DNA of 35,875 nucleotides, taken from NCBI GenBank assembly GCA_018822885.1, contig JAHJJA010000160.1:1-35875 (forward strand), in the 5' to 3' direction. A program made the position numbers and the translations under genes. Of the stretch, positions 17,563 to 35,058 are shown piece by piece. This DNA is from Candidatus Omnitrophota bacterium (lineage in GTDB: Bacteria; Omnitrophota; Gorgyraeia; Gygaellales; Profunditerraquicolaceae). Within the stretch, counting starts at the first letter, position 1. Every line of letters starts with the position of its first letter. The notes under the pieces were generated by a model, which had not been told where the DNA came from, ran no database searches, and saw nothing but the letters and a program-made list of their open reading frames with translations.

Positions 17563-19323
17563 CTATTTCTTCAGTACTTTCTTCAACTCTTCCCTTGTCG
17601 CCTTACCCTCTATTCCAAAGATTTCCTGATTGTCAGTCAAAAACACCGGCCCAAACATGACTTGCAATTCTTTATTAAGGCCGATATTCTGTTTTAACAG
17701 CGATTGCCCTTCTTTACCTCGTGCGCACGCCTTTATTTTAGAAGAGTCAAGCTTGCCCAGGCAATCTTCCCACCAGGTGCTCTTGATATCCTTTGCACGA
17801 CAAATAAGATAATCCCAGAAAATATCGGGGTAATATTTTTGCACGCAAACAGCGCGCAGATATTCCTCGACTTCAGGACTGCCATTTTTCGCGTCAAAAT
17901 TACCGTTATCTTCTACGGCAAGAAAATGCAAAGAAGGTTTTAGGTCCCGTACCGCCAAAAACAATCCTTTGATCCCCTTGTCATATAAGCTGATGAACAA
18001 ATCCAGCCTTCCTTCGATTCTCTCTCTATTCTGATAATAGGATATACCGGCATATTCCGGCTTTAAGAGATAAAACTTGCCCTTTTTATTCGCCTTCTTT
18101 TTAATCTCTTCAAAACCCTTCTCTTTCTCTATTTGCGTAGTAAAAATATACGCGGGCAGACCTTCAATATCAAGCTCTTTGATCAAATCCTTAGCGTTTT
18201 TTTCGGGATAATAAAAATAGGTAGTCTCAAGCCCCGGGAACCTTTTCTTCAACAAAGTAACTAAACTCAAGGTATTGCAAACACTGCATTCCTTGGGAGT
18301 GACTATTATAAGTTCGACCTTAGGCGCCTTAGTGAACTCGCAGGCAGCCTTGATCTCCCCAGCTTTAGAACAGCTGCCGATAAAACCTTTCTTTTTGCAA
18401 TTTATGTCCGAAAAACATTGCGGCAGGATCTTAAGGATCGCGGGATCATCCTTTATCTTATCCGAAAGCCTCAGGTCTTCTGTTTTATGGCTGGTTATTT
18501 TGCCTTTTTCCACATTTAGCAATAATTTTCCCAAATGCCTGCCCTGCCATGCAGTCCTCACTATCAGAGTACCTTTTTTATTGATAGAGGCGGCATCTTG
18601 CGAACTCCCCCTGCCTTCTATCAATACATCTATACCTTCTATATTGTTTATTAATCTTAAATTCTCATCTTCATCGAGATTACTGAGCAGTACGATAATG
18701 CCGGTTCCTTTTTTCTTAAGTTCAGCTACGCACTCTTTTACGGCCTTTTCCGGATCGATTAATTTCGAGCCGGGGGCTTTTTCCTTGATCAATGGCGAGG
18801 TAACACCGATAATGCCGATTTTGACCCCTGATATTTCCTTAATAATATACGGCAGTGTATTCTCAAGCCTTGCATTGCAGGAGATGACTTTAAGGCCGCT
18901 GTCCGTAATCTCTTTCTCAAAGAAACCTTTCCCTAAATTAAGCTCATCTTCTCCGAGGGCCACGGCATCATATTTCATAATCCCCATGCTTTTTAGGTTT
19001 ATCAGGGTGCGCTTGGTATCAAGCTCTGTGCCCTGCGTATAATCATCGATAAGCCCGCCGGCGAAGAAATTACCCGTATCCAAAAGCAATGCTTCGGGAT
19101 GATTCTTTCTGATCTCCTGCACTAGGCTAGCGCGCCTTGCCACTCCGCCATCAGGCTCTATCGGGCAGTTACAGGGGTAGATCATAGCGTGAGTTTCGCC
19201 GCTGTAAATTATCGCGATCTCCTTAGCATAAGAGTTAAGCACAAAGCTTAAGAATATAAACGAAAAACTCAAAAATAAGAAGCTTGTATATTTATTTTTT
19301 ATTTTTGATTTCTTATCTTTCAT
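17563..19323 (-). CDS. Exported UshA-like metallophosphoesterase-fold protein with degenerate metal site, fused to a CxxC thioredoxin-like C-terminal region
   Basis: Signal peptide; IAIIYSGETHAMIYPCNCPIEPDGGVARRASLVQEIR...LLDTGNFF...ALGEDELNLG; second part VELIIVTPKECSVCNTLSLVTLLKKRFPG (CSVC at 18277-18288). Confidence 0.65.
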   Translation of the reverse strand: MKDKKSKIKNKYTSFLFLSFSFIFLSFVLNSYAKEIAIIYSGETHAMIYPCNCPIEPDGGVARRASLVQEIRKNHPEALLLDTGNFFAGGLIDDYTQGTELDTKRTLINLKSMGIMKYDAVALGEDELNLGKGFFEKEITDSGLKVISCNARLENTLPYIIKEISGVKIGIIGVTSPLIKEKAPGSKLIDPEKAVKECVAELKKKGTGIIVLLSNLDEDENLRLINNIEGIDVLIEGRGSSQDAASINKKGTLIVRTAWQGRHLGKLLLNVEKGKITSHKTEDLRLSDKIKDDPAILKILPQCFSDINCKKKGFIGSCSKAGEIKAACEFTKAPKVELIIVTPKECSVCNTLSLVTLLKKRFPGLETTYFYYPEKNAKDLIKELDIEGLPAYIFTTQIEKEKGFEEIKKKANKKGKFYLLKPEYAGISYYQNRERIEGRLDLFISLYDKGIKGLFLAVRDLKPSLHFLAVEDNGNFDAKNGSPEVEEYLRAVCVQKYYPDIFWDYLICRAKDIKSTWWEDCLGKLDSSKIKACARGKEGQSLLKQNIGLNKELQVMFGPVFLTDNQEIFGIEGKATREELKKVLKK

Positions 19324-19332
19324 ATTCTTTCC

Positions 19333-20916
19333 TCATATCCTTATCACCTTTACCGATAAAACATTCTCTATTTTTCTGACCTTATCCAGGACCTCCGGAG
19401 ATACTTGGCTGTCCACATTCAAAACGCTGATCGCTTTTCCTCCCGGCTCGTCGCGGCCAAAAGTCATAGTCGCGATATTGATGCCACACTTGCCAAAAAA
19501 TGTTCCGAGATTACCGATTACCCCGGGCTTATCCCAATTCTGGATAAAAACCATTTCCCCCTCCGGCTGGCACTCTAAATAATACTTATCTATTTTTACA
19601 ATGCGCGGCTTCTTATTGGAGGATAATGTCCCGCAGACTTTTCTAGACTCTTTATCAGTTTTTATCTCCAAGGTAATAAGCGTGACAAATTCCTCCTCCG
19701 AGGAAGTCTTTGCCTCATTTATCTTGACCCCTCTTTCCTTTGCCAGGGCCGTGGAATTAATAAAGTTCACAGTTTCCTGCAAGACGGGTTTTAATGTGCC
19801 TTTTACCAAGGCAAGCGTCAAGGGAGTCAAATCATGTTTGATTATCTCTCCGCTATAAGTGATATTGACCTCTTGGAGCCTTCCTTCAGCAAGCTGACTG
19901 GCAAAAGCACCGAGTCTCTCCGCAAGATTTATGTAAGGCTCGATAATCCTGGAGACTTCCGGTTCTAAACAGGGATAATTTGCGGCATTACGAATCCCCT
20001 TGCCTAAAAGCGCATCTCTTACTATCTCTGCCACCTCGATCGCTACATTCACCTGCGCCTCTTCAGTAGAAGCGCCCAAATGAGGAGTCAGAACAACGCC
20101 ATCTAACTTCAAAAGCTCGCTCTCCGCAAGAAGCGGCTCTTTTTCAAATACATCGAGGGCAGCTCCGGCGACCTTGCCTTCTTTGATCGCAGCAATAAGT
20201 CCCTCCTCATCAATAATGCCTCCTCTTGCGCAATTGATTATACGCACACCCTTTTTCATGATTGCAAATTGAGGAGCAGAAATCACATGTTTTGTCTCAT
20301 CCGTCAAAGGGGTGTGCACGGTAATATAATCTGATTTCTCAAGAAGCTCCTTTAACTCGACTACTTCTACTCCGAGGCTACTGGCCACATCAACCGAAAG
20401 AAAAGGATCATAAGCAAGCACGTTCATTCCAAATGACAAGGCGCGCTTTGCTACTTCCCGGCCTATCCTTCCGAAACCGACGATCCCCAGGCTCTTACCG
20501 TAAAGCTCGACGCCCATAAATTTAGAGCGCTTCCATTCCCCTTTTTTCATCGAAGCGTTAGCCTGGGCTATATTTCTTGAAAGGGACAAAATCATACTTA
20601 TAGTGTGCTCTGCAGTAGAGATCGTATTGCCTCCGGGAGTATTCATGACAATAATGCCTTTTTGCGTAGCAGAATCTAAATCCACGTTATCCAACCCTAC
20701 TCCGGCGCGGCCAATAACTTTTAATTTTGAAGCCGCCGCAATAATATCTTTAGTGACCTTAGTAGCGCTTCTTACCACAAGAGCGTCATAATCCTTGATT
20801 TTTTCTTTTAACGCATCCGGTTTTAAATCAGTGACAACATCGACAGTGAACTCTTTAACATCCTTGAGTATCTGCACCCCTTCTTCAGATAATGGATCGC
20901 TGATCAAGATCTTCAT
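19333..20916 (-). CDS. serA: D-3-phosphoglycerate dehydrogenase, long form with ACT domain
   Basis: Start MKILISDPLSEEGVQIL at 20916; VGRAGVGLDNVDLDSAT, GIVGFGRIGREVAKRA, NCARGGIIDEEGL, LTPHLGASTEEAQ; C-terminal ACT region. Confidence 0.95.
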   Translation of the reverse strand: MKILISDPLSEEGVQILKDVKEFTVDVVTDLKPDALKEKIKDYDALVVRSATKVTKDIIAAASKLKVIGRAGVGLDNVDLDSATQKGIIVMNTPGGNTISTAEHTISMILSLSRNIAQANASMKKGEWKRSKFMGVELYGKSLGIVGFGRIGREVAKRALSFGMNVLAYDPFLSVDVASSLGVEVVELKELLEKSDYITVHTPLTDETKHVISAPQFAIMKKGVRIINCARGGIIDEEGLIAAIKEGKVAGAALDVFEKEPLLAESELLKLDGVVLTPHLGASTEEAQVNVAIEVAEIVRDALLGKGIRNAANYPCLEPEVSRIIEPYINLAERLGAFASQLAEGRLQEVNITYSGEIIKHDLTPLTLALVKGTLKPVLQETVNFINSTALAKERGVKINEAKTSSEEEFVTLITLEIKTDKESRKVCGTLSSNKKPRIVKIDKYYLECQPEGEMVFIQNWDKPGVIGNLGTFFGKCGINIATMTFGRDEPGGKAISVLNVDSQVSPEVLDKVRKIENVLSVKVIRI

Positions 20917-20932
20917 CGTAACCCTCCTAATT

Positions 20933-22312
20933 CTAAGTACGCTTCTTAATATGCATATCATAAACCTCAGAGCTAATCTTGCCTTCTTCAAATAACCTAG
21001 TAATTGAATCCTCCATAAGATGCATATTGGCCTTGCTGCCGGTCTGCACAACTGACGGAATCTGAACAAAATCTTCTGTATAAATAAGCCTGCGTATTGC
21101 CGTATTAGCAACGCAGACCTCGGTCGCTACTACGCGTCCGGTACCGTCTTTTTTCATTAAAAGCCTCTGGTTGATCGAGGCTCGGAAACACTGGGAAAGC
21201 CGGTTACAAAGAAGACGGCGCTGCTCCGCAGGAAACAAACTAATAATCCGCTCAAATGTCTGCACAGTATCAGTAGCATGAATAGATGTAATAACCAAGT
21301 GACCGGTTTCAGCCGCCTGAACGACTATCTCAAGAGTTTCGGCGTCAAAACTCTCACCCACAACAATCACGTCAGGATCCTGCCTGAGAGCCGCTCTTAA
21401 ACCACTGGCAAAACTCGTCACATCGATACCGACCTCGCGCTGTTTAACGATCGCTTTTTCATTCTTATGCACATACTCAATAGGCTGCTCAAGGGATAAA
21501 ATTACTCCACCGCGACGTTTATTAATATAATCCACCATGGCATTTATCGTAGTCGTCTTGCCTGCCCCTGAGGGACCGGAAACAAAAATAATCCCATCTT
21601 TTAAAAGGCTGATCTTGTGAATAATCTCCGGCAGCCCGAGTTCCTCCCGCGCCTTAATAAAAGATTGGATCTTACGAAAAACTACTTCCGGTACACCCCG
21701 TTGCTGATAAACGCTTACGCGAAACCGCGAACCATTCCTTAACGTGAAGGCAAAATCAAAATCCCTGACTTTCTCAAAAATGGCAAGCTGTTCTGAATTT
21801 AAAAGGCTATAAACCATCTCGGTGATCTCTTCCCCGCTTAATATTTGTTCGGATAAAGGTTTAATTACCCCGAATATGCGCACCATAGGCGGAGAATTAA
21901 AAGTGAGGTGTAAATCAGAAACATCCTTCTTATCAATGTTTTCTAAAAGCAGGTAAATATCCGTACGCTCAAGACGGCTTTTTATTTCTTCTTTATCCTG
22001 AGCAGGAGGATCAATAAATTCAATCCCGATAGCATAAGTAGTATCGGAAATCCGCTCTAAACGAACCACTCGAGCTTCAAGCTCTATAATGCTAACAGGC
22101 TCTCCGAGAAGAGACAATTCAATTTTTAAAACAGTGTCTAGAGGGATCTGGTTTTTAGTTTCAAACAATAAACCGGAAGCGCTAATATTAACGCTAACAG
22201 CATGATAAGTAAGATTCTTTAAGCCGTCACCGACAATTTGATATTTGAAACGAACGCGTAAACGTAGGCGCCGCTCTTTTCTTTTTTCTACAAAATCTTT
22301 TAACTTAATCAC
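20933..22312 (-). CDS. PilZ domain fused to a PilT-type retraction ATPase
   Basis: N-term EKRKERRLRLRVRF...VNISASGLLFET (PilZ RxxxR and NxSxxG); then VSGPSGAGKTTTINAMVDYIN (Walker A), LRQDPDVIVVGESFDAETL, TSIHATDTVQTFERII, AIRRLI. Confidence 0.85.
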   Translation of the reverse strand: MIKLKDFVEKRKERRLRLRVRFKYQIVGDGLKNLTYHAVSVNISASGLLFETKNQIPLDTVLKIELSLLGEPVSIIELEARVVRLERISDTTYAIGIEFIDPPAQDKEEIKSRLERTDIYLLLENIDKKDVSDLHLTFNSPPMVRIFGVIKPLSEQILSGEEITEMVYSLLNSEQLAIFEKVRDFDFAFTLRNGSRFRVSVYQQRGVPEVVFRKIQSFIKAREELGLPEIIHKISLLKDGIIFVSGPSGAGKTTTINAMVDYINKRRGGVILSLEQPIEYVHKNEKAIVKQREVGIDVTSFASGLRAALRQDPDVIVVGESFDAETLEIVVQAAETGHLVITSIHATDTVQTFERIISLFPAEQRRLLCNRLSQCFRASINQRLLMKKDGTGRVVATEVCVANTAIRRLIYTEDFVQIPSVVQTGSKANMHLMEDSITRLFEEGKISSEVYDMHIKKRT

Positions 22313-22332: not shown

Positions 22333-23469
22333 CTATTTCAAGAATTCCTCTTCTGCTGCCCTGACACCCTTGCCCATCTCGAATTTATGGCCCATCTGCG
22401 CAAGGACCTTTTCAAGGCAGGAGATCCCCGCGATGATATCGAACTCCTCGATAAAACCCATATGCGCTATCCTGATAAGCTTTCCCTTCATCTCGCCCTG
22501 TCCTCCGGCGATAGTAACACCGTAAGTATCACGCATAGTCTTGACAAGTTTTTCTCCGTCTAAGCCCTGCGGCACCTTTGCCGCTGTAACCACATCAGAA
22601 GCTGCGGTAGGAGCAAACAGCCCTAAGCCGAGCGCTTGTACCGCTACCCTTGTGGCATCCGCCATTTTCTTATGGCGCGCAAAGACCTTTTCCAGTCCGT
22701 CCTCCTTGATCATTGCTAAAGCCTCATTAAGCGCTATGATCAAAGTTATCGCCGGAGTAAAAGGAGTATCGGTCTTGTCTATTGCTTTCTTGGCCTTTCG
22801 TAAATCGAAATAGTACCTCGGAGACTTTGAGGCCTCGATTAATTTGAAAGCCTTAGGGCTCACCGAAATAAATCCTAAACCCGGAGGAAGCATAAGGCCT
22901 TTTTGCGAACCGGAGACTACCACATCGCAAAACCATTCATCGGTTTTTAAATCAATAGCCCCTAAACCGCTAATGGCGTCTACCACCAAGACTGCTTCCG
23001 TTTTATTAACCACTTCCCCGATGGCTTTAATATCATTTACAACGCCTGTAGAAGTCTCGCATAAAGTCGTAAATACCACCTTGATCTTTGGATTAGCCTT
23101 TAATCTTTTTTCGATTTCAAGCGGGCTTACGGCTTTGCCCCACTCAACATCGATAATCTCGGCGTTGATCCCATAGGGCTTGCACAACTCTGCCCATCTT
23201 TCCCCGAATTTACCACCCTGTACGCTTAAAGCGGTATCACCGGGAGAAAGTAAATTAATAACCGAAGCCTCCATGGCGCCGGTTCCTGAAGAAGCCAGAA
23301 TGAAGACATCGTTCTTTGTCTGAAATACATACTTTAGCCCCTCTGTCGCCTCTTTTAATATCGCCTGAAATTGCGGCGTGCGATGATGTATTATCGGCCT
23401 GCTCATCGCTTCGGAAACTTTCGGCGGTAAAGGAGTGGGACCTGGGGTGAGAAGATAGTTCTTACGCAT
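22333..23469 (-). CDS. Class V aminotransferase (serine/alanine-glyoxylate aminotransferase family)
   Basis: YLLTPGPTPLPPKVSEAM, HHRTPQF, SSGTGAMEASV, VSGSQKGLMLPPGL (PLP lysine). Confidence 0.9.
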   Translation of the reverse strand: MRKNYLLTPGPTPLPPKVSEAMSRPIIHHRTPQFQAILKEATEGLKYVFQTKNDVFILASSGTGAMEASVINLLSPGDTALSVQGGKFGERWAELCKPYGINAEIIDVEWGKAVSPLEIEKRLKANPKIKVVFTTLCETSTGVVNDIKAIGEVVNKTEAVLVVDAISGLGAIDLKTDEWFCDVVVSGSQKGLMLPPGLGFISVSPKAFKLIEASKSPRYYFDLRKAKKAIDKTDTPFTPAITLIIALNEALAMIKEDGLEKVFARHKKMADATRVAVQALGLGLFAPTAASDVVTAAKVPQGLDGEKLVKTMRDTYGVTIAGGQGEMKGKLIRIAHMGFIEEFDIIAGISCLEKVLAQMGHKFEMGKGVRAAEEEFLK

Positions 23470-31971: not shown

Positions 31972-32004
31972 ACCATTTACACACCTACGAGGTGTGTAAA
32001 TGGT
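31972..32004. repeat. Perfect 15-bp palindrome with 3-nt loop
   Basis: ACCATTTACACACCT-ACG-AGGTGTGTAAATGGT; overlaps the stop codon of the double GT9 gene. Confidence 0.85.
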
Positions 32005-34042
32005 TGTTTGGGCTGGCCAGGATTGACCACGCTGCTTTTATGACGTCGTCTACAGTTATCGCTTTAAGACAGGCGAACTCTCTTTTGCAATTATGCGCGA
32101 GGCACTCAATACAGCCGACCTCTTCATGCAAGATCCGGTCATTTTTACCTATCGGACCCCAGCGCTTAGGGCTTAAGCCAGCCTGTGAACGGCCAAAAAT
32201 CGAGATGACCGGTGTGCCCACTGCTGAAGCTATATGGACAGGTCCGGAATCATTAGAGATAAACAAGGTGCATCTTTTCAATACGCTTGCCAACTCGCTG
32301 ACAGAAGTCCTTCCGGCAAGATTCACTACCGGGGCCTTCATATTACCGACTACCGACTGCGCAAGCGTCATGTCTTTTGGTCCGGCAACAACCAGCACCT
32401 TAAAACCATATTCCTTGGCCAAGCTGTCGGCGACTTCAGCAAAACGCTGGTTAGGCCAGATCTTTGAAGGGCAGCTCGCTCCCGGATGAATTGCTAATAA
32501 CCTATCCGAACCAGCTATCCCTTCTCTCACAAATAGATCATCTACTAACTTTTCAGATTCTTTCTTGATCGGCATAAACAAATCTAAATCACTTGGCTCT
32601 ATTCCCAAATATCTCACTAAATCCAGGCTATATTCTAACTCGTGTTTTTCTCCTAACTGCTTGCTATGTTGAAACTTTTTACTCAACAGAAATCCCATCT
32701 TTTTGCCATAACCGATCCTATGAGGGATCCCGGCAAAAAAAGTTATTAGATGGACACGGTTGATAGGATGCAAAACCAAAGCCAAATCAAACTTTTTCTT
32801 TTTTAAATTCAGGGTGAATTTTATTGACCTGACCCAACTTTTATGTTTCTCGTCTTTATCATAAATAATCACCTGGTCTAAATAAGGATTACCCTCGACA
32901 ATATCCAAAGCATATGGGCTCACCATCATAGCAATAAAAGCATTGGGACAGGCCTTGCGCATCGCCTTTATCACCGGGGTCGACAACAACACATCCCCTA
33001 TCCTGTCCGTTCTGACAATTAATATTCTTTTAAACTTATCCTCCATACTCCTGACCTTACAACTCAACACCCTTCTTACCGAACCCAAAACATCTTCTAC
33101 CTTCACCAGATGAATACACTCCAAAGTCCCGAGTCTGCACTGTGCCTTTTCGCAAGGCCGACAAAGAATCTCTTTTCTCACCGCAGCGCAATTTGCCGAC
33201 CAAGGGCCGTATTTTCCCTGGTCGGTAGGGCCAAAAATGGAAACAACCGGAATATTAAGATAGCTCCCCAAATGCAAAGTCGCGCTGTCATTAGTAACTA
33301 ATAACTTGGCAAACATCAATAAATAAGCCAATTGCGAAAGATTAGTTTTGCCGGTCAAATCCAAAACAGGATATTTACAATTTGCAGTAATATATTCAGA
33401 GGTCTTGATATCATCACGATCCCCGGCTAAGACTATCTTTGCCTTAAACTCTTTCACTAAGTGCGGGATCAACAGGCAGAATTTTTCTTTTGCCCATCTC
33501 TTAGTATGGCTTTTTGCTCCGGGCGCAATAACAATAAGGTTGTCTCCGGCCGCAATGCCATTCTTCAATAACAACCCTTTAATAAAAAGCTTATCCTGTG
33601 GACTAATAAATAACAAAGATTCCTTTGCCTCGAATGCCTTTTTGACATTTAGCTTTTTTAATAAAGAGCGGACTTTATAAAGATGGCGCTCCTGCATGTG
33701 GCGGATATGCCCTGGCACACCAGTAATAATTGGAAGTTTATAACGGGCAGGCAAAAATATACCAAAAAATGTATTGCGTAGATCTATCGCCATATCAAAA
33801 TTCATTGCCTTAAGCTTATTAAACAGCTCGATCTTATCTCTTAGCTTGGCGCGCTTGTCAAATACTATGACCTCCTTAATATGAGGATTGTTTCCAAACA
33901 ATTCACTCGGACGCCGGGCAGTCATCACCGAAATTTGCGCATTGGGAAAATATTCCCTTAGCTCATCTAATGCGGGTAGGGTCAAGACCACATCGCCAAT
34001 ATTACTAAGAGTAATAAACAGGATTTTCTTTACTTCTTTCAT
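31985..34042 (-). CDS. Double-domain GT9 (heptosyltransferase-type) glycosyltransferase fusion
   Basis: Two full modules: ILFITLSNIGDVVLTLPAL...NDSATLHLGSYLNIPVVSIFGPTD and ILIVRTDRIGDVLLSTPVI...NDSGPVHIASAVGTPVISIFG. Confidence 0.9.
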   Translation of the reverse strand: MKEVKKILFITLSNIGDVVLTLPALDELREYFPNAQISVMTARRPSELFGNNPHIKEVIVFDKRAKLRDKIELFNKLKAMNFDMAIDLRNTFFGIFLPARYKLPIITGVPGHIRHMQERHLYKVRSLLKKLNVKKAFEAKESLLFISPQDKLFIKGLLLKNGIAAGDNLIVIAPGAKSHTKRWAKEKFCLLIPHLVKEFKAKIVLAGDRDDIKTSEYITANCKYPVLDLTGKTNLSQLAYLLMFAKLLVTNDSATLHLGSYLNIPVVSIFGPTDQGKYGPWSANCAAVRKEILCRPCEKAQCRLGTLECIHLVKVEDVLGSVRRVLSCKVRSMEDKFKRILIVRTDRIGDVLLSTPVIKAMRKACPNAFIAMMVSPYALDIVEGNPYLDQVIIYDKDEKHKSWVRSIKFTLNLKKKKFDLALVLHPINRVHLITFFAGIPHRIGYGKKMGFLLSKKFQHSKQLGEKHELEYSLDLVRYLGIEPSDLDLFMPIKKESEKLVDDLFVREGIAGSDRLLAIHPGASCPSKIWPNQRFAEVADSLAKEYGFKVLVVAGPKDMTLAQSVVGNMKAPVVNLAGRTSVSELASVLKRCTLFISNDSGPVHIASAVGTPVISIFGRSQAGLSPKRWGPIGKNDRILHEEVGCIECLAHNCKREFACLKAITVDDVIKAAWSILASPNNHLHTS

Positions 34043-35058
34043 TTTAATCGAATCTCTTTTATCACATCTTCCGGAGTTATCGCCTTCATACAGCGATTAT
34101 CCTGGCATTTTACTTTATAGCAGGGAATAGGACATCCTACATCCTTTTGCAAAATAACAGTATTACTCTGAGGAAGCGGCCCGGTGATCATAGTAGAGGT
34201 CGGGCCAAAAAGAGCGATGATCTTTTTTGCCCCTACCGCGTTAGCTATATGCAACGGTCCGCTGTCAGCAGTGATAAAGACATCCGCTCTTTTTGCCAGG
34301 GATCCGAGCTGTTTCAGGCTAAAAACTCCGCAGGCGACTACAGGCTTTTCTTTAACCGCCTCTCGTATTGACCTTGCCAAGGCAACATCCGTTTGTGCTC
34401 CGGTAATGACTATTTTAGCGCCAAAATTCTTTGCTAAACCTTCAGCTAAATGCACCCAATTCTCTTTTGGCCAACGTTTAGGGAGCCAATTTCCTCCGGG
34501 ATTAAGTACTGCCAAAAAATCCTGGCTTGCAATCCCGTGATGGCTTAACCAATCTTCAACACTCTTAGCATCCGTATCACTAAACACAAAATCAGCAAAT
34601 TTATCTTTTACTTTAAGCCCGGACTGCTCAATGACATTAAGATAATAATCAGCCCGATGCAGGCTATCCCTATCCGGAGCAATGATTTTTTTGGTCAGGA
34701 GAAACCCTCTTTTCTTGGTGTAATATCCGAACCTCTCGGGTATCCCGGCAAGACGCGCTACAAGCGCGCGGGTAAATGAACGGTGTAGCAAAAAAACCAT
34801 ATCAAACTTCTTGGATTTGAGCATCTTGATAAAACTCAACTGCGCAAATAATCCTTTGTGGCTATCTTTCTCATCAAAAATAATTATCTCATTCAGGTAC
34901 GGATTGCCTTCAAGAATAGAACGGCAGCGCTTTGGCACTGCACAAGCAATAAAGCTATCCGGGTAATTATAACGGATGTTCCTTATTACTGCCGTTGAAA
35001 ACAAAACATCCCCAAGCCAGTTCACATTAAAAATAAGAATACGCTTATTATCTCGCAT
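34039..35058 (-). CDS. GT9 heptosyltransferase-family glycosyltransferase
   Basis: ILIFNVNWLGDVLFSTAVIRNI...NPGGNWLPKRWP...ADSGPLHIANAVGAKKIIALFGPTS. Confidence 0.9.
   Translation of the reverse strand: MRDNKRILIFNVNWLGDVLFSTAVIRNIRYNYPDSFIACAVPKRCRSILEGNPYLNEIIIFDEKDSHKGLFAQLSFIKMLKSKKFDMVFLLHRSFTRALVARLAGIPERFGYYTKKRGFLLTKKIIAPDRDSLHRADYYLNVIEQSGLKVKDKFADFVFSDTDAKSVEDWLSHHGIASQDFLAVLNPGGNWLPKRWPKENWVHLAEGLAKNFGAKIVITGAQTDVALARSIREAVKEKPVVACGVFSLKQLGSLAKRADVFITADSGPLHIANAVGAKKIIALFGPTSTMITGPLPQSNTVILQKDVGCPIPCYKVKCQDNRCMKAITPEDVIKEIRLK

Follow-up and report, generated by a model that had tools for sequence, protein, structure and literature searches.

A protein consisting of an N-terminal PilZ domain and a PilT/PilU-type retraction ATPase is encoded in a genome of the Omnitrophota, and this architecture is real and ancient within the phylum. 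In most of these fusions, the arginine corresponding to R206 of PilT, which is nearly invariant in other members of the family, has been replaced. Sequence comparisons and modelled structures make it about an even chance that the protein is a c-di-GMP-responsive ring of the PilT family which modulates type IV pilus retraction.

A PilZ domain joined to a PilT/PilU-type ATPase

The fusion gene is located in the window, by which the whole analysed stretch of 35,875 nucleotides is meant (contig C155 of a genome of 1.75 Mb, 91% complete). The sequence-only reading had assigned the fusion to positions 20933-22312, and these coordinates are correct. Inspection of the reading frames assigned the gene to the minus strand, from 22312 to 20933, and a plus-strand reading was rejected because that strand is crowded with stops. 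The GTG start is preceded on its 5' side by the G-rich sequence GGGGGG. The features of the gene and its immediate neighbours are listed in Table 1.

Table 1. Features of the fusion gene and adjoining genes in the window
Feature	Position	Strand	Evidence or remark
PilZ-PilT fusion gene	20933..22312	-	459 aa, GTG start, stop included
PilZ domain (residues 9-112)	21977..22288	-	Pfam PF07238, E 4.4e-12
RxxxR c-di-GMP motif (R11-R15)	22268..22282	-	motif conservation among fusions
[D/N]xSxxG c-di-GMP motif (NISASG, 42-47)	22172..22189	-	motif conservation among fusions
PilT/PilU-type ATPase (residues 122-449)	20966..21949	-	NCBIfam TIGR01420, E 2e-109
Walker A GPSGAGKTT (246-254, K252)	21551..21577	-	K252 in 73/73 fusions, 128/128 others
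Asp box EQPIE (E275 retained, Q in place of D276)	21476..21490	-	E275 in 68/73 fusions
Walker B, catalytic Glu E320, F322 replacing PilT R206	21344..21379	-	E320 in 69/73 fusions
His box (H338, H345)	21278..21301	-	both present in window protein
Class V aminotransferase (BhcA-like), upstream, 20 nt before fusion gene	22333..23469	-	context, outside machine
serA (phosphoglycerate dehydrogenase), downstream, 16 nt after fusion gene	19333..20916	-	TIGR01327, E 2.5e-210

An N-terminal PilZ domain with RxxxR and NISASG motifs had been proposed from the letters of the sequence, and profile and fold agreed in detecting PilZ within residues 1-115. The Pfam match scored 46.7 bits, where the cut-off is 22.5. 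When the N-terminal region was modelled alone with AlphaFold2, six strands and a C-terminal helix were obtained at a pLDDT of only 69, and the best Foldseek matches of this model were PilZ structures, many of them with c-di-GMP (prob 1.00). At the sequence level, a profile built from the N-terminal half of the family picked up YpfA/MotI, a PilZ protein (E 2.5e-05); no PDB chain containing both a PilZ and a PilT part was detected in this search.

In PilZ domains, the residues of RxxxR and [D/N]xSxxG contact c-di-GMP. Both motifs have been restated in the literature (PMC11731258). These residues are mostly kept in the homologues of the window protein. In an alignment of 27 fusions, R15 never varies, R11, S44, and G47 are conserved to at least 90%, and the domain varies freely outside these positions. 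Considering fusions of at least 430 aa (n=70), RxxxR was found in 67, the strict [D/N]xSxxG in 52, and both motifs in 51. Judged by the motifs, ligand binding may have been lost or changed in the part of the family departing from them, and in one fusion (L033) the middle of the PilZ domain is missing. With known PilZ receptors such as Alg44, PA4608, MotI/YpfA, and YcgR, the fusion shares the fold and both motifs, but its PilZ domain is joined to a pilus ATPase and ligand binding is a prediction.

The C-terminal part had been read as a PilT-like ATPase from its Walker A motif and a DPDVIVVGE box (residues 312-320), an assignment on which family profiles and fold agree. TIGR01420, the PilT/PilU family, was matched with 366 bits (cut-off 319.1), Pfam T2SSE spans residues 195-390 (E 2.2e-35), and sequence matches to PilT in the PDB went down to E 1.8e-76. 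The AlphaFold2 model of the fusion protein has a mean pLDDT of 88.8, and its ATPase part superposes on PilT4 of G. metallireducens with a TM of up to 0.93 by target (Foldseek); identity of this part to Geobacter PilT4 is about 40%. In common with PilT and PilU (TIGR01420; PDB 6ojx, 3jvv, 9n32), the fusion has the ATPase fold, Walker A, the catalytic Glu, the Glu of the Asp box, the His box, and the RFR arginines. It differs from them by the additional PilZ domain, by replacement of R206 and of the Asp in the Asp box, and by AIRRLI at 405-410 instead of the C-terminal motif AIRNLI. The RFR arginines, present in the window protein, are retained in 72-73 of 73 fusions, whereas the two His-box residues are kept to different degrees, H345 in 67 and H338 in 37 of the 73.

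Distribution and gene neighbourhood

With a profile of residues 1-215, full-length matches were obtained in at least 55 of 384 Omnitrophota genomes, two further ones being partial, and some genomes hold two or three copies. Searching 58 related genomes with the full protein yielded about 17 full-length fusions and additional partial ones. For the counts given here, 73 fusion proteins were extracted, and 128 other PilT/PilU proteins served as comparison set. A genome survey of PilZ-T2SSE architectures, as suggested by the sequence-only reading, thus revealed a recurrent arrangement in Omnitrophota and not a chance event. The fusions are distributed across many families and genera of the phylum.

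In 1,120 genomes of five other phyla, Elusimicrobiota, Myxococcota, Planctomycetota, Thermodesulfobacteriota, and Pseudomonadota, no match above threshold extended over PilZ, and the few matches obtained were confined to PilT; at the cut-off applied, E <= 1e-36 to 1e-38, very divergent fusions could escape. The other genomes in a set of 38 diverse ones were likewise without a match, with one exception (L104). A locus search with the fusion protein alone as query gave no relative, and an alignment-based search retrieved ordinary PilTs for the most part and a single named fusion, which is this exception, from Omnitrophota isolate DeMMO3_15. Plasmid records contained ordinary PilTs only, none of them covering 80% of residues 1-215.

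In trees calculated from the ATPase part only, all fusions and one further protein, L025, form a single clade (98% ultrafast bootstrap, 94 SH-aLRT), and repeated independent fusion was rejected for this reason. L025 has the same gene order, and pieces of PilZ were detected upstream of it by hmmsearch in two different frames. It is therefore regarded as a fusion orthologue with a broken or misassembled PilZ domain, and its classification as a non-fusion protein without R206 was rejected because of these frameshifts or assembly errors.

In the window, the start of serA at 20916 is preceded by AGGAGG. The order aminotransferase, fusion gene, serA is also present in two other genomes, G028 and G018. 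Since the gene order is shared and 73 homologues were collected, a one-off fusion created by misassembly was rejected. Fusion genes of other subclades have different housekeeping neighbours, constant inside each subclade; read by eye from the sequence and not by profile, these are panB, glyS, and PPDK; dnaE and hisS; lysC and cimA; uvrC and ogt; mlaD and radA. A pil operon was not seen around the fusion genes at any neighbourhood inspected. In the genome of the window protein, the canonical pilT gene (C156, L056:1064-3882) is likewise part of a tight metabolic operon, lying by reading between leuC-like and leuD-like genes, so that the placement of the fusion among housekeeping genes is not evidence against a role in pilus function. 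Within subclades, fusion genes are repeatedly adjoined by genes for two small putative membrane proteins (about 241 aa and about 161 aa, family unassigned), upstream in L029, L035, L081, L084, and L090 and downstream of L093-type fusions.

Replacement of the arginine next to Walker B

That the Walker B region is variant, GESFD where PilT usually has GEMRD, had been noticed in the sequence-only reading, which gave this catalytic change no weight. The variant was confirmed: F322 occupies the position of R206 in PilT, and the change is clade-wide at a position where arginine is near-invariant elsewhere. Arginine is found at position 322 in 127 of 128 other PilT/PilU proteins from many phyla, but only in 15 of 73 fusions. 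The sole exception among the non-fusions is the same-locus orthologue L025, in which PilZ is broken by frameshifts. Among the 51 PilT positions that are near-invariant, position 322 shows the greatest change in the fusions. Position 276 is Asp in 121 of the 128 comparison proteins versus 33 of the 73 fusions, and Gln in the window protein. By plain counts, 20 fusions have Arg at 276, and 18 of these carry Asp or Glu at 322, which reverses the usual D276-R322 arrangement.

On the tree, a single branch within the fusion clade accounts for the loss of Arg 322 (39 rows, support 100/99), and two changes were counted in all, including one apparent regain. From the position of this branch it follows that the fusion came first and the loss of the arginine second. 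A separate fusion subclade of 14 rows retains the arginine in the form GE[MI]RD.

R206 has been described as normally invariant, adjacent to Walker B and part of a network of arginines round the ATP site, and PilT R206S of V. cholerae MO10 causes hyperpiliation like a Walker B mutant, with pilus function then depending on PilU (PMC6762196). PilT-R206S of V. cholerae looks retraction-defective; the phenotype is that of one PilT in one species. Judging from the residues concerned, ATP hydrolysis by the fusion is probably altered and weakened. With the R206 equivalent gone, it would probably be weak or conditional, and the protein would mainly be a modulator of retraction. The Walker A Lys, the Glu of the Asp box, the catalytic Glu, the RFR arginines, and both histidines of the His box are present in the window protein, and efficient hydrolysis is therefore possible.

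Stronger changes are found in five fusions of family f36 (L245-L248, L251), all of them second copies. Each lacks the Glu of the Asp box (E to Q), and four of the five are also without the catalytic Glu, the GE of Walker B being changed to DK, DQ, SD, or DG. Their His box is degraded, PilZ is retained, and the neighbouring genes were read as uvrC and ogt. An intact-looking fusion is encoded in the same genomes. Degraded paralogues in which PilZ is kept fit a trend towards regulation.

Further PilT-like genes were observed in these genomes. On contig C20 of G028 (L053), a canonical pilT gene and a fusion keeping R206 lie about 5 kb apart, and the same genome carries a fusion without R206 at the serA locus. 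The genome of the window protein (C86, L058:4198-5271) and 15 relatives (L274-L288) encode a second PilT-like paralogue without PilZ. Its catalytic Walker B Glu is replaced by Asn in all cases (GNIRD, ANIRD, or SNIRD), while Walker A, the Arg after Walker B, and the second His of the His box are retained; by these residues, it seems likely to be a conserved retraction pseudo-ATPase.

Possible function and alternatives

Three GGDEF matches, with GGEEF, GGEEL, and GGDDF-like motifs, and twelve PilZ matches were detected in the host genome, as were three PilB-PilC-like units. MshEN is present above cut-off in each of the three PilB/GspE-like ATPases, and in the one on contig C142 two full RLG...Q motifs of the binding consensus were recognised by eye. 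A Pfam profile search detected no MshEN in the window protein, and the fusion is thus distinct from the MshEN-type module, as had been stated beforehand. In most of the fusion genomes covered by the 58-genome search, a canonical PilT is present as well. From this domain content, extension and retraction could both be responsive to c-di-GMP through unrelated domains.

The action of c-di-GMP on pilus extension proceeds via MshEN. Retraction ATPases, being shorter and without MshEN, have been judged unlikely targets (PMC4624772), and an effect of c-di-GMP on PilT-driven retraction independent of MshE has been posed as further work (PMC7096442). There is a two-protein precedent for action of PilZ on a retraction ATPase. 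XC_2249 of Xanthomonas campestris, a separate PilZ protein, binds PilT and PilU; it also binds c-di-GMP, but this binding is dispensable for its effect on motility (PMC3749722). As proposed for the fusion, PilZ acts here on retraction ATPases; in Xanthomonas, however, two separate proteins are involved and a GGDEF partner is required (PMC3749722), whereas the Omnitrophota protein represents the covalent form. MshE and PilB with N-terminal MshEN (GSPII) likewise have a receptor domain for c-di-GMP preceding a pilus ATPase, but the receptor differs in fold and motif and the ATPase is of the extension type. In the PilB-PilZ-FimX complex of Xanthomonas, PilZ is reported to contact a pilus ATPase as well, but in trans, with an extension ATPase, and with FimX sensing c-di-GMP (PMC8389850). 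The sequence-only reading knew of no characterised protein with the fused architecture, and searches of full-text literature, with most subscription papers outside their reach, likewise revealed no description of a PilZ-PilT fusion.

A regulatory reading of the fusion is well supported by conservation of its sequence; direct control of retraction is a plausible hypothesis. PilT and PilU form separate homohexamers touching each other and PilC, and PilU works without PilT being an active ATPase (PMC6821130). A weakly hydrolysing PilT-like ring could thus still be useful, and the following mechanism is based on this consideration. A hexamer of the fusion would dock in the manner of PilT or PilU, either on the PilC platform or on the ring formed by canonical PilT in the same cell. 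Binding of c-di-GMP to the six PilZ domains would shift these relative to the neighbouring N-terminal subdomain of PilT, and ring conformation or docking would be altered by this movement. The fusion would then act mainly as a signal-gated modulator, a brake, clutch, or co-motor, beside ordinary PilT; meanwhile, c-di-GMP-binding MshEN-PilB could respond on the extension side. In a narrower form, the protein would be a regulator specific to the phylum, a PilT ring gated by the second messenger that, once PilZ had been gained, shed its arginine, and in some lineages also the catalytic or Asp-box Glu, to work as a c-di-GMP-operated brake or adaptor on ordinary PilT and not as a motor. This form is put forward tentatively, as a serious possibility. 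Several observations speak against a modulating ring: the core catalytic residues are retained in the window protein, roughly one fusion in four lacks the strict form of [D/N]xSxxG, the gene resides in a serine-type and not in a pil operon, the R206S evidence comes from a single PilT, and one fusion subclade retains the arginine.

In line with the sequence-only reading, which suggested direct control of retraction by c-di-GMP, the fusion could be a full retraction motor switched by this messenger; its D276-R322 contact would be replaced and hydrolysis be normal. The retained core catalytic residues, the TIGR01420 score above cut-off, and the 14-row subclade with GE[MI]RD are in line with such a motor, and the charge-reversed 276/322 pairs of 18 fusions suggest compensation. 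The window protein, however, has no pair of opposite charges (Q276/F322), R206 hardly varies outside the fusions, V. cholerae PilT that has lost it resembles a Walker B mutant (PMC6762196), and most fusion genomes in the 58-genome search already contain a normal PilT. A full motor is therefore considered rather unlikely. Because the arginine loss is clade-wide, a c-di-GMP-controlled retraction motor should not be assumed, and an impaired or regulatory ring appears, from the residues at these positions, at least as likely.

PilZ could also be a module for protein-protein contact or targeting, to which c-di-GMP is incidental. XC_2249 is a precedent (PMC3749722), and the fusions without the second strict motif as well as the incomplete PilZ of L033 would agree with it. 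Near-invariance of R15, S44, and G47 in an otherwise variable domain is hard to account for without ligand binding, and an incidental role of c-di-GMP is quite improbable. It is more doubtful still that the fusion works in a different type IV filament or in a secretion system resembling type II, and not in pilus retraction, or that it is degenerating baggage. The location of the genes in housekeeping operons, the three PilB-PilC-like units of the genome, and a frameshifted PilZ in G018 point in this direction, but the ordinary pilT of the genome shares the operon type, and score, fold, and tree place the protein in the PilT/PilU subfamily. To our knowledge, type II secretion systems have no PilT, which argues against another machine, and preservation of intact, conserved fusions in many genera argues against baggage.

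A natural single-chain PilZ-PilT is a simple protein for testing direct control of retraction by c-di-GMP. The lineage offers built-in comparisons: R206 is retained in some fusions and replaced in others, some copies are catalytically dead, and in one orthologue PilZ is broken.

Two observations concern other genes of the window, both on the minus strand. An open reading frame of 685 aa (31985-34042) contains two tandem Glyco_transf_9 (heptosyltransferase) domains and adjoins a single-domain copy at 34039-35058. A protein of 586 aa with a cysteine-rich C-terminal half (17563-19323) has no Pfam match and only weak UshA-like and SoxB-like matches below cut-off; it adjoins serA in G018, too.
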